This document shows, one piece after another, positions 37,506 to 40,580 of a stretch of DNA of 64,000 nucleotides. Made by a program: the position numbers and the translations under genes. This DNA is from Blastococcus sp. HT6-4 (lineage in GTDB: Bacteria > Actinomycetota > Actinomycetes > Mycobacteriales > Geodermatophilaceae). The stretch is taken from assembly GCF_039679125.1 (NCBI RefSeq), contig NZ_CP155551.1, forward strand, positions 3,348,001 through 3,412,000, read 5' to 3'. Under the pieces are notes generated by a model that saw nothing but the letters and a program-made list of their open reading frames with translations, did no database searches and was not told the origin of the DNA. The stretch's first letter is position 1. The number at the start of each line of letters is the position of its first letter.

Positions 37506-38024
37506 TCACCCGGACCTTTCCTCGGCGACGTCGCCGGCGCCCAGCCTGACCTTCCGCAGCGTGTCGAACACCTGGTCGCAGTCGGCCTCGGAGAGGTCGG
37601 CGAGACCGAAGTCCAGGGCCGTGAGCGCCGTCGTCGCCTGCTCCACCACGGCACGCCCGCGCTCGGTGATCGCCGCCAGCACCCCGCGGCCGTCGGCCGG
37701 GTTGGGCCGCCGGCCCACGTAACCGGCCGCGACCAGCCGGTCGATCGCGTTCGTGACGCTGGTCGGGTGCACCATCAGCCGGCTGCCGATGACCTTCAGC
37801 GGCAGTTCACCGCTCCGGCTGAAGGTGAGCAGCACGAGCACCTCGTACCGGGCGAAGGTGAGGCGGTGCGGCTTGAGCACCTCGTCGAAGCGGGCGAGCA
37901 GGATCTGCTGCACCCGGAAGACCGACGTCGCCGCGCGCATGGCCGACGCCGGCCCGAAGCGCTGCTCCCACGTCTCCCCTGCCCGCTCGATCGGGTCGTA
38001 GGGCAGCCCCAGCGGTCGGACCAT
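37506..38024 (-). CDS. MarR-family transcriptional regulator
   Basis: A 172-residue winged-helix regulator: RAATSVFRVQQILLARFDEVLKPHRLTFARYEVLVLLTFSRSGELPLKVIGSRLMVHPTSVTNAIDRLVAAGYVGRRPNPADGRGVLAAITERG is a full MarR domain with the recognition helix at HPTSVTNAIDRL and the wing at PADGRGVLA. ATG at 38024 is chosen over a GTG nine bases earlier. It sits directly upstream of icmA on the same strand, so it probably controls branched or short acyl-CoA mutase expression in response to a CoA thioester or carboxylate; the ligand is inferred. Confidence 0.9.
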   Translation of the reverse strand: MVRPLGLPYDPIERAGETWEQRFGPASAMRAATSVFRVQQILLARFDEVLKPHRLTFARYEVLVLLTFSRSGELPLKVIGSRLMVHPTSVTNAIDRLVAAGYVGRRPNPADGRGVLAAITERGRAVVEQATTALTALDFGLADLSEADCDQVFDTLRKVRLGAGDVAEERSG

Positions 38025-38064
38025 GGGCGGCACGGTACCGGGGCGGCCCCGACCGGCCGCGGGT

Positions 38065-38111
38065 GTCGACGTGCCGTGGGGTGGCGGACCCGGACCCCAC
38101 GGCAGGTCGAC
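38065..38111. repeat. 47-nt palindromic element, left copy (DUF559 flank)
   Basis: Arms GTCGACGTGCCGTGGGGT and ACCCCACGGCAGGTCGAC pair over 18 bp with one mismatch around an 11-base loop. A homologous element with the same arm length, loop length, GTCGAC ends and CGTGG/CCACG core lies at 39049-39095 on the other side of the DUF559 gene. It is not next to a stop codon, so a plain terminator does not explain it. Confidence 0.75.
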
Positions 38112-38170
38112 GGCCGCGCCGCCTGTGGACAGCCGCCCCGGGGGCTGCTGCCGTCGGCCACGCTGACGCC

Positions 38171-39046
38171 GTGGGTCCCCAGCCGCGCCGGCCTCCGGAG
38201 CTGCACCGGCGCGTCTTCCGGGGCAGCGCGGTCGTCCGGTCAGGCCGGCTCACCGAGAACGAACTCCGCAGCTCGGCCTGGCGCCGGCTGCACCGCGACG
38301 TCTACGTGTGCGCCACCGTGCCGGTCACGCACCGGGTACGCGCCATGGGCGCCGCCCTCGCGGTGCGCCGCTCGGCGATCAGTGGTCGCAGCGCCGCCGT
38401 GCTCTGGGGCGTGGATGCCGCCGGTGCGGGCGACGACGTCGAACTCACCGTCCCGCCCGGAGCCGGGGTCAGCACGTTGCCCGGTGTCCGCGTGCGGCGG
38501 CGTGCGCTCGACCCCGCACAGGTGCTGAGGCGCTCCGGAGTCCCGGTGACCAGCGCAGCGCTGACCGCGCTCGACCTGGCGGGGAGGCTCCCGGGATCCG
38601 ACGGCACCGCACTGGTGGACCGACTGGTGCGCTCGGGCGCGACCGATCTCGCCGCGGTGCGTGCACTGGCGTCGACCGCGCGCGGCCCGTGGTCCGCGCG
38701 AGCCCGCCGAGCTGTCGCCCGGGCCGACGGCCTGGCCGAGTCACCGCAGGAGACGCGCCTGCGACTGCTGCTGCGGGACTCGGTGGTGCCCGACCCCGTC
38801 GCCCAGCACGTCGTCCGGGATGCCGACGGCCGGTTCGTGGCGCGCGTCGACTTCGCATGGCCCGACCACCGGATCGCGCTCGAGTACGAGGGCACGTGGC
38901 ACGGCGAGCGTCAGCAGGTCGGGAAGGACCGGGCACGGCTCAACCGGCTGACCGGGTGCGGGTGGCGGGTCGTCTTCGTGACGGCGGCGGACCTGCGTGA
39001 CCCCGCACGGCTACTGCTCCGGCTGGCAGCCGAACTGGGCAGCTGA
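38171..39046 (+). CDS. DUF559/AbiEi-like endonuclease-domain protein
   Basis: A 291-residue protein of the large actinobacterial DUF559 family. The N-terminal part resembles the AbiEi winged-helix/antitoxin-like region (FRGSAVVRSGRLTENELRSSAWRRLHRDVYV). The C-terminal part is a Vsr-like PD-(D/E)xK nuclease: DADGRFVARVDFAWPDHRIALEYEGTWHG supplies the Asp and Glu, and QVGKDRARLNRLTGCGWRVVFVTAADL the basic residue and final strand. GTG at 38171 is chosen; the longer ORF runs through the left hairpin. The gene is bracketed by two homologous 47-nt palindromes, the right one two bases after its stop. Function is unknown; defence, toxin-antitoxin or selfish mobility are all possible. Confidence 0.82.
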   Translation: MGPQPRRPPELHRRVFRGSAVVRSGRLTENELRSSAWRRLHRDVYVCATVPVTHRVRAMGAALAVRRSAISGRSAAVLWGVDAAGAGDDVELTVPPGAGVSTLPGVRVRRRALDPAQVLRRSGVPVTSAALTALDLAGRLPGSDGTALVDRLVRSGATDLAAVRALASTARGPWSARARRAVARADGLAESPQETRLRLLLRDSVVPDPVAQHVVRDADGRFVARVDFAWPDHRIALEYEGTWHGERQQVGKDRARLNRLTGCGWRVVFVTAADLRDPARLLLRLAAELGS

Positions 39047-39048
39047 CT

Positions 39049-39095
39049 GTCGACTCGTCGTGGTGTCGAGGACCGGAACACCACGACAGGTCGAC
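39049..39095. repeat. 47-nt palindromic element, right copy (DUF559 flank)
   Basis: Arms GTCGACTCGTCGTGGTGT and ACACCACGACAGGTCGAC pair over 18 positions with two mismatches around an 11-base loop. It begins two bases after the DUF559 stop and also lies downstream of the convergent oxidoreductase gene, so it could act as a bidirectional terminator. Its sequence similarity to the left copy at 38065-38111 is the unusual point. Confidence 0.75.
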
Positions 39096-39122
39096 GACGG
39101 CGCGCACGACAGGCGGAGGGCG

Positions 39123-40580
39123 TCAGCGCAGGGGCGGGACCTCGCGGACGCCGAAGACCTCCCGCAGCGCCACCTGCGCGGCGTTGTCCCCGCAGGCGCC
39201 GTGCACCGCCGGCCCCGGCGGCGTGGCGGCCGACGCCAGGTACACGCCCTTCACCGGCGTCTTGTAGGTGTTCCAGCGCGGCACCGGCCGGGCCAGCATC
39301 TGCCGCAGGGTGGCCTGGCCGTTGGAGATGTCACCGCCGAGGTAGCTGGGGTTCCACTGCTCCATCGCGACGGCGTTCTTCGTGCACCGCTCGACGACCG
39401 TGTCCCGGAACCCGGGCGCGAACCGCTCGATCTGGTTCTCGATGGCCTCGGTCATGTCTACCTCCGACCCGTGCGGCACGTGGGCGTAGGCCCAGAGGAT
39501 GTGGCCACCCTCCGGGGCCCGGGTGGGATCGGGCACGGTCGGCTGCACCGCGAGCACGTAGGGGCGGTCGGTGATCCGGCCGCGGTTGGGGGCGTGCTCC
39601 CCTGCGATCGTCTCCTCCAGGTCGCCGGCCACGTGGATGGTCCCGGCCCGCCGGACGTCGGGGTTCGCCCACGGCACCGGCTCGGACAGGATCCAGTCGA
39701 TCTTGAACACGCCCGCGCCGTGCCGGTACCGGGAGACCCAGCGGCGGTAGCCCTCGTGCACCCGGTCCCCCGCCATCGCGACGAACGCCCGGGGCGTGGT
39801 GTCCAGCAGCACCGCCGGCACGCCGTCGAACTCCCGCAGGTCGGTGACCTCGTGCCCGGTCACCACCTCGCCCCCCTGCTCCTCCAGGGCGGCGACCATC
39901 GCGTCGGCGAGCTGCTGGGACCCGCCCTCGATCAGCGGCCACCCGACGTGGTGGGACAGCATCGCGAGGATCATCCCCAGGGCAGAGGTCAGGGGCTGGC
40001 TCAGGTCGAGCATCCCGTGGGCCGCGGCGCCGGCCAGCAGGGCGCGGGCCTCCTCGGTGTCGAAGCGCCGTCGCGCCAGCCAGCCCACGTTGGGCAGCCC
40101 GTTGAGCCCGAACTGGGCGATCTGCGGCACGCTGCGCGTCGGCAGGCGGCGCAGCCGGCTGGTCAGGAAGAAGTCGACGACGTCGGCGCCCCGGTCGGTC
40201 AGCGGCCCGAACAGCCGCCGGTAGGAGTCCGCGTCGCGCCCGAGGCCCACCGCCGTCTCCTCCAGCGACCGCAGCGAGAGCGCCGCCCGCCCGCCGTCGA
40301 GCGGATGGGCGAAATTGATCTCCGGGTGCACGAACCGCACACCGCGGCGCTCGGGGTCGAACTCGCGGAAGAACGGCGCCGCGGCCGCCATCGGCTGCAC
40401 GATCGAGCACACGTCGTGGTGGTAGCCCGGGCGCATCAGCTCCTCGGTGCGCAGCCCGCCGCCGGCGCGGTCGGCCGCCTCCACCACCTGCACGCGCAGC
40501 CCGGCGGCGGACAGCCGCAGGGCGGCCGCCAGCCCGTTGGGCCCCGCTCCGACGACGACGGCGTCCGCCTTGCCGTTCAC
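39123..40580 (-). CDS. FAD-dependent oxidoreductase, phytoene-desaturase-like (PYROXD2 group)
   Basis: A 485-residue flavoprotein: N-terminal Rossmann FAD site DAVVVGAGPNGLAAALRLSAAGLRVQVVEAADRAGGGLRTEE and C-terminal amine-oxidase/CrtI-type motif KTPVKGVYLASAATPPGPAVHGACGDNAA. Sequence style fits the NAD(P)/FAD oxidoreductase group related to CrtI but not true carotenoid desaturases; no crt genes are nearby. The substrate is unknown. It converges with the DUF559 gene and is followed upstream, across 61 bases, by meaB on the same strand, so possible co-transcription with meaB-thiolase cannot be excluded. Confidence 0.87.
   Translation of the reverse strand: MNGKADAVVVGAGPNGLAAALRLSAAGLRVQVVEAADRAGGGLRTEELMRPGYHHDVCSIVQPMAAAAPFFREFDPERRGVRFVHPEINFAHPLDGGRAALSLRSLEETAVGLGRDADSYRRLFGPLTDRGADVVDFFLTSRLRRLPTRSVPQIAQFGLNGLPNVGWLARRRFDTEEARALLAGAAAHGMLDLSQPLTSALGMILAMLSHHVGWPLIEGGSQQLADAMVAALEEQGGEVVTGHEVTDLREFDGVPAVLLDTTPRAFVAMAGDRVHEGYRRWVSRYRHGAGVFKIDWILSEPVPWANPDVRRAGTIHVAGDLEETIAGEHAPNRGRITDRPYVLAVQPTVPDPTRAPEGGHILWAYAHVPHGSEVDMTEAIENQIERFAPGFRDTVVERCTKNAVAMEQWNPSYLGGDISNGQATLRQMLARPVPRWNTYKTPVKGVYLASAATPPGPAVHGACGDNAAQVALREVFGVREVPPLR

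Follow-up and report, generated by a model that had tools for sequence, protein, structure and literature searches.

A putative REPtron-like unit in Blastococcus: an AbiEi–Vsr-like nuclease gene bracketed by two homologous palindromes

The window analyzed here, a stretch of 64,000 nucleotides from the genome of Blastococcus sp. HT6-4 (NZ_CP155551.1, positions 3,348,001 to 3,412,000), carries a nuclease gene standing between two palindromes that resemble each other, and this arrangement raises the question what ties an enzyme to the repeats on both of its sides. A preliminary description had claimed two homologous palindromes with 11-nt loops, enclosing a gene for an AbiEi-like protein with a Vsr-like PD-(D/E)xK nuclease domain, and it had proposed a REP/RAYT-like, possibly mobile, unit, with a plain family of terminators as the alternative. 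Both palindromes were recovered at these places (Table 1) by a repeat search of the window, in which they form a 56-nt direct repeat of 79% identity, and their four-arm score of 72 lies above 60, the highest value reached both among 311 control window pairs and among 98 control ORFs. Folded as DNA, the left and the right copy reach z-scores of −6.2 and −3.3 against shuffles, respectively, and 1 of 200 shuffles of the right palindrome folds equally well. The left palindrome is placed between two divergent starts, that of the MarR gene on the minus strand and that of the nuclease gene on the plus strand, with 59 nt from the end of its core to the nuclease start codon, a GTG set by comparison with relatives; the right palindrome follows the stop codon (TGA, 39044–39046) after 2 nt. 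The genome-wide search that the preliminary description had called for returned the consensus CGTGGNGT-N8-14-ACNCCACG at three places in 4.30 Mb, namely the pair of the window and one solo palindrome, and the reversed-pattern control returned one place. A relaxed pattern, consisting of one mismatch-tolerant arm of the window palindrome, stayed at background (75/83 versus 86/74 in the control), and an NCBIfam search of the region gave no match. A sub-threshold Rfam match of the right palindrome to a viral miRNA (E 0.054, 23.1 bits versus a gathering score of 91) was rejected as a chance result expected for a good hairpin.

Table 1. Features of the nuclease locus; coordinates are positions in the window.
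Feature	Position	Strand	Remarks
MarR-family regulator gene (context)	37506..38033	-	divergent from nuclease gene; site marker in 22 of 23 genus genomes
Left palindrome	38058..38118		core 38065-38111; 25-nt arms 38058-38082/38094-38118, 88% complementary; 11-nt loop
CCTGTGGAC box	38122..38130	+	common to most of the family
CACGCT, -10-like hexamer	38159..38164	+	6 nt before GTG start; read by eye
Nuclease gene	38171..39046	+	291 aa; AbiEi fold plus Vsr-like nuclease
Right palindrome	39049..39095		18-nt arms 39049-39066/39078-39095, 89% complementary; 11-nt loop
FAD-dependent oxidoreductase gene (context)	39123..40580	-	convergent with nuclease gene

The AlphaFold2 model of the nuclease (mean pLDDT 96.0, pTM 0.90) splits cleanly into two parts. 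In structure comparison, residues 6–186, a winged helix with a second domain, resemble 6y8q, an AbiEi antitoxin (171 residues aligned, Z 10.8, rmsd 4.8), and residues 191–291 resemble I-Bth0305I, a homing endonuclease, in its catalytic domain (3r3p; Z 10.3, rmsd 2.3, 92 residues), which bears out the domain assignment made from the sequence. The second part also resembles 3hrl (Z 9.6) and Vsr itself (1vsr; Z 7.6, a value that alone means little, being below 8), and a sequence profile of the nuclease part agrees with the fold (3hrl, E 1.7e-5; 3r3p, E 4.7e-4). Foldseek ranked Rv2827c (1zel) first (E 4.4e-4, 253 columns, rmsd 10.1) and 3r3p next (E 7.5e-3); in pairwise structure comparison Rv2827c matched residues 1–204 (VIA Z 7.5, rmsd 5.2). 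PADLOC reported AbiEi matches for the window nuclease. At an E value of 0.01, Pfam matched DUF559 in 59, MTES_1575 in 56 and AbiEi_1 in 13 of 64 family members, the window nuclease itself scoring under the Pfam cut-offs. The catalytic residues are invariant in these 64 members, and the invariant columns include E194, Q212, D227, E238, H244, D253, and W265. The gene is under purifying selection yet diverges faster than its neighbors: dN/dS is 0.12–0.25 in 12 of 12 same-site pairs, and in ten other genomes with an intact copy at the window site the nuclease is 53–63% identical to that of the window and MarR 83–89%. As a separate observation on the model, the middle domain (residues 51–199) also appears similar to MenT-type nucleotidyltransferase folds (8an5, Z 9.4, 136 aligned), a likeness that implies no activity.

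On the promoter side, 88 of 109 family loci carry a CTGTGGA motif at a distance of 20–54 nt upstream of the estimated start, and none of 753 control windows does. Hexamers of the form CANNNT, similar to the -10-like hexamer of the window, were seen by eye in many of 40 upstream regions viewed, and the succession CTGTGGA-N-CANNNT-N-GTG occurs once in the window, at the nuclease gene (expected 0.06); a scan for the sigma-70 consensus found nothing. The sequence suggests a leaderless nuclease transcript. With a -10-like hexamer 6 nt before the GTG and a leaderless message, the left palindrome would therefore act as DNA and not as RNA of the nuclease gene. The CCTGTGGAC box resembles a reversed actinobacterial DnaA box, a likeness that stays a lead because its outer bases are not conserved. 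The box is reversed (GTTGTCCACAG) in two loci (L059 and L064).

Does the pairing of gene and palindromes recur? Relatives of the nuclease were found in 54 of 60 genomes, and the 110 best-scoring loci among the matches listed (30 + 80) were taken, 109 of which could be scored over the 5′ and 3′ arms of the left and of the right palindrome, 14 nt each, a score >60, the maximum of the controls, counting as a pass. A matching pair of left and right palindromes was present at 75 of the 109 loci from Blastococcus and its relatives, compared with 0 of 98 ORFs anchored at start and stop and 0 of 311 window pairs, and thus palindromes do flank other DUF559-family genes, as the preliminary description had asked to be checked; no pair above control level was found at the remaining 34. 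By kinship, pairs occur at 53 of 74 loci from the genus, at 21 of 29 from the rest of its family and at one of six from beyond the family. A simple alignment of flank to flank points the same way, though less strongly, with 64 of 108 loci exceeding the 99th percentile for pairs taken across loci. Among nucleases of the D/D′ type, 16 of 17 have paired palindromes, the 17th being not analyzable. In named actinobacterial records, scored with wider windows, 10 of 15 loci reach 71–84 versus 46–58 for the controls, for which the tenth passing locus, from Jiangella, left no room; the others that pass come from Klenkia, Actinorugispora, Mycolicibacterium, Mycobacterium sp., Nocardioides, and metagenome-assembled genomes, and the five at 52–59 include a second Klenkia and a Geodermatophilus locus. 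With wider windows, one of the six loci from other families passes (L065, score 61).

Several individual loci of the family are worth recording in their own right. L065 (genome G045) carries two palindromes with 21–23-nt arms and nearly identical T-rich loops of 16 nt, and is low in the narrow pair score. The genome of the window harbors a further unit with long GATCA-type palindromes (L106; G000:C1:1559400-1563100), and several relatives with this type have a right copy that starts at the stop codon, TGA (TGATCA). The same genome has another, distant AbiEi-DUF559-like unit with GGCATAGGAAGC-type palindromes (L307; G000:C1, about 671.0–672.3 kb), at whose site other species carry different lineages.

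Palindrome type and protein lineage were compared for 73 loci with a good pair, restricted to units at different sites. Arm similarity rises with protein identity (Spearman 0.20; 0 of 500 permutations as high), and the relation is a threshold effect: arms are shared by 43% of 67 different-site pairs at 60–70% protein identity, by 6.7% at 50–60% and by 0.6–3.0% in the bins below 50%. Within 42 D-type palindromes, 97 double-sided changes were counted versus 41 in shuffled and at most 22 in slid arrangements; the D-type core was selected by pattern, and the evidence for covariation therefore comes from the outer and inner pairs. Left-right identity is 86% in the arms and 56% in the loop centers, a contrast that is biased because matching arms had been the criterion for selecting both the loci and the arm positions. 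Several loci, among them L063, L129, and L130, have four identical arms and different loops. On the protein tree, the unit of the window clusters (support 90) with units from another site whose palindromes are likewise of the GTCGAC/GTCGGC type. Taken by domain, the correlation of arm similarity with protein similarity is 0.14 for the winged helix, 0.21 for the middle domain and 0.20 for the nuclease, values too weak to single out a palindrome-reading domain. Palindromes thus bracket most of the examined family members, and the type of the palindrome goes with the lineage of the protein.

How the units have behaved in genomes was followed at orthologous sites. The MarR gene marks the window site in 22 of 23 genomes of the genus, and 13 of these sites hold a nuclease (two of them broken, in G019 and G006), one holds a truncated remnant (G018), and eight are without one. 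Among the latter, G021 has lost the gene and retains the two palindromes, separated by about 30 nt, G016 and G022 show simply a gene-free gap of 71–77 bp, G017 has a gap of about 190 bp, and G001, G009, G013, and G020 carry another open frame, NlpC/P60-like by eye. Clean insertion boundaries could not be drawn at the MarR site from the gaps of G016 and G022, because these are too diverged. At a second site (around L049), compared in 23 genomes, a first lineage is present in four genomes, a related lineage of opposite orientation in nine, and a third, distant lineage in eight, with a matching palindrome pair in 6 of 6 inspected (12-nt arms, 62–72 of 72; no separate control); G016 retains a collapsed remnant, and G013 is gene-free with a single palindrome that is, by eye, of the first lineage's type. 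Alleles without the unit, which the preliminary description had proposed to look for, thus exist at both sites. For 16 units, a tree with some weak forks requires three or more switches of orientation, and sister proteins at the L091/L101 site stand in opposite orientations too; because units of opposite orientation are diverged, they may have arisen either by inversion in place or through a second unit that took over the site.

On a tree of 113 proteins with 11 site labels, 12 changes of site were counted versus a minimum of 10 and a shuffled mean of 61; movement between sites is therefore rare, and the units are mostly inherited in place. The mobility suggested in the preliminary description is accordingly to be read as rare rather than active, and the addiction-type system that it had also raised gained no evidence for or against. 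Recent transposition, which would put similar units into dissimilar flanks, was not clearly apparent among the best 45 pairs of an all-against-all comparison, and the analysis turned up no insertion that had clean junctions or a duplicated target. No sign of carriage by known vehicles appeared in plasmids (5 records, <35% identity), in the phage collection (none), or in viral contigs (none).

Palindromes also occur apart from nuclease genes. The exact D core (GAACTCGTGG..CCACGAGTTC) is present in 17 of 23 Blastococcus genomes at 0–6 copies per genome, the reversed control giving 0, and BLAST detects further diverged D copies, uncounted, beyond the exact-core matches. Five of six close D pairs bracket a nuclease. 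The sixth (L186; G000:C1:144086 and 145687) consists of two identical palindromes separated by 1.6 kb in which no nuclease was matched; their left flanks are identical too, and a local duplication is the probable origin. The outer arms of 13 solo palindromes agree better with the unit of their own genome (8.8/10) than with those of others (7.1/10; 1 of 5000 permutations), and 10 of the 13 rank the own-genome unit first or tied first. Genomes with a D nuclease (9) contain 4.0 exact D palindromes on average versus 1.6 in those without (14) (p 0.004); for solos only the values are 2.8 versus 1.6 (p 0.024). Species are not independent, and their relatedness inflates these results, that on the outer arms included; D-type solos are common in genomes without a D nuclease too (six in G000, five in G002). 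The window's own type is found within three mismatches at 24 places, many of them not palindromes, in 15 of 23 genomes (control 3), and solo palindromes of this type comprise one in its own genome (3480818–3480865) and one each in G012, G015, G016, and G018. Mycobacterium sp. URHD0025 has three copies of its cognate palindrome, two around the nuclease and one alone. Solos and right copies often lie at gene ends, and one solo (L188) lies behind a tRNA; orthologues of this solo site offered no clean pair with and without the palindrome, and contained different palindrome types, an unremarkable hairpin, another gene or nothing. Observed across Blastococcus species (L229–L251), a gap behind a tRNA 3′ end shows different palindrome types, a recurrent GGCCCTCCTCC hairpin, another gene or nothing, and the G015 copy in it resembles the palindrome of that genome's own nuclease at L042.

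Considering these results together, we favor, with a probability of about 0.6, the reading that palindrome, gene and palindrome form a REPtron-like palindrome-nuclease unit whose enzyme, the AbiEi–Vsr fusion, would recognize its own palindromes; recognition, cleavage, and transposition are steps that we infer. The most likely link between protein and palindrome would be that the former recognizes and cleaves the latter. The nuclease might recognize its own palindrome as a symmetric duplex or as an extruded hairpin and nick or cut there, and repair might then copy the palindrome, and occasionally the whole unit, to other sites. Joining of the two palindromes would delete the gene and leave a solo copy, and we propose that the cassette could re-join in either orientation because the palindrome is self-complementary. 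The CTGTGGA box and the -10 hexamer, situated inward of the left palindrome, would drive a leaderless transcript, and most units would now be static and vertically inherited, like domesticated RAYTs. DUF559/AbiEi fusion genes would thereby gain a concrete candidate substrate, their own flanking palindromes, and palindromic repeats of high-GC Gram-positives might originate from such units; dozens of protein-palindrome pairs with different sequences would offer a data set for rules of DNA recognition.

A more far-reaching version, tentative and on balance doubtful, is that the units represent a new class of prokaryotic mobile elements unrelated to known transposons. A homing-type nuclease would here use one palindrome as its target, as its own two ends and as its non-autonomous offspring; it would cut solo palindromes, copy the unit into them in either orientation on account of the self-complementary ends, and collapse to a solo palindrome like an LTR element, with a lineage-specific password palindrome whose copies across the genome are dragged along in concert.

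If nothing were mobile, the palindromes could be operators, bound both by the AbiEi-type protein for control of its own gene, possibly with looping, and solos would be regulated sites or relics; arms would then covary with the protein because both palindromes are its binding sites. AbiEi proteins are known autoregulators, and this background together with the fold matches, the rarity of jumps, the perfect arms around different loops in L063, L129, and L130 and the position of the left copy just upstream of the presumed promoter speaks for such control. We nevertheless hold it to be unlikely, as the right copy lies at the stop codon, remote from any promoter that the gene may have, the left copy stops about 50 nt short of the start and leaves the -10 region free, and opposite orientations at one site as well as palindrome types common to different sites would be unexplained unless units move. 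Quite improbable appears a nuclease of the defense or toxin type that attacks foreign DNA at palindromes, its flanking copies serving as decoy, self-mark or control switch: the PADLOC AbiEi matches, the fast divergence under purifying selection and the loss and decay at orthologous sites would suit it, but no AbiEii partner toxin was found among the window neighbors scanned, no relatives were found in the phage collection or viral contigs, and solo copies in the host genome would themselves be targets. That the palindromes are terminators or structural hairpins bracketing the gene by accident and kept as RNA elements is highly improbable despite their strong folding and the right copies and solos that often lie at gene ends, one of them behind a tRNA, since the left copy of the window is flanked by start codons pointing away from each other, a place at which transcripts are not expected to stop, no T run follows 38118 or 39095, a terminator scan (loops of 3–8 nt only) found 0, and four arms shared between left and right that track the protein lineage are not expected of terminators; the terminator family that the preliminary description had set as its alternative, with repeats at random gene ends, no link to DUF559 genes and no empty sites, is thus not what was found, the gene-end position of solos being the part that does agree with it.

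Several known systems share parts of this anatomy. I-Bth0305I has the Vsr-like catalytic fold with the conserved acidic residues, but the gene described here is intergenic, is fused to an AbiEi domain and has intact palindromes on both sides. As to the hallmark of homing endonuclease genes, the interruption of their own site, the palindromes are intact on both sides, and one gene-free allele has a single palindrome. The AbiEi protein of the AbiE type IV system (6y8q) shares the fold of residues 6–186, whereas the present protein is fused to a nuclease, and no AbiEii toxin was found among the three window neighbors scanned (MarR, FAD oxidoreductase, and methylmalonyl-CoA mutase). Rv2827c, matched by Foldseek, superposes poorly overall and covers the AbiEi part, not the nuclease. 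A Vsr-like protein of Caulobacter shares the DUF559/Vsr-like nuclease domain, but the parts of its report drawn on here mention no AbiEi domain, and the word stem 'palindrom' is absent from the main text (PMC12907096). Open-licence papers in PubMed Central gave no earlier description of a palindrome-bracketed AbiEi-DUF559 unit, one elsewhere being possible, and none that joins DUF559 with an inverted repeat.

The closest likeness is to the REPtron, i.e., a RAYT (TnpA_REP) with its REPs (PMC2817692; PMC8266576). According to the sections of these papers considered here, the RAYT pattern comprises one gene, two cognate palindromes, co-evolution and solo copies, with a fast-evolving protein whose orthologues stay in place and with palindromicity kept (Nunvar 2010; PMC2817692), and one survey describes another group of REPs as apparently without a transposase of their own (PMC3733652). 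To the extent covered by these sources, the units share with the REPtron the single gene between two palindromes that covary with the protein, the dispersed solos, the kept palindromicity and the gene at orthologous positions that evolves faster than its neighbors. They differ in having few exact copies per genome (0–6 for the exact D core, diverged copies uncounted, versus >100 REPtron palindromes), long near-perfect palindromes and a conserved CTGTGGA box. A check for tags, restricted to the window copies, found no GTAG at 38050–38120 or 39040–39100, and CGTC inside the right arm. Above all, the enzyme is an AbiEi–Vsr PD-(D/E)XK nuclease and that of the REPtron an HUH tyrosine transposase. 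To our knowledge, the HUH RAYTs are so far the one enzyme family with which REP palindromes have been associated. The Y1_Tnp domain (PF01797) was matched in 0 of 23 Blastococcus genomes (5 of 14 in the control set), and with an unrelated enzyme and no such match the unit is therefore named REPtron-like and not REPtron; the REP/RAYT-like reading of the preliminary description holds as an analogy, through the recurring pairing, the covariation, the solos and the unit-free alleles, and is not supported as membership in REP/RAYT. A REP-like anatomy built around a non-homologous nuclease, in genomes without a RAYT match, would amount to convergent evolution of a partnership between palindrome and nuclease.
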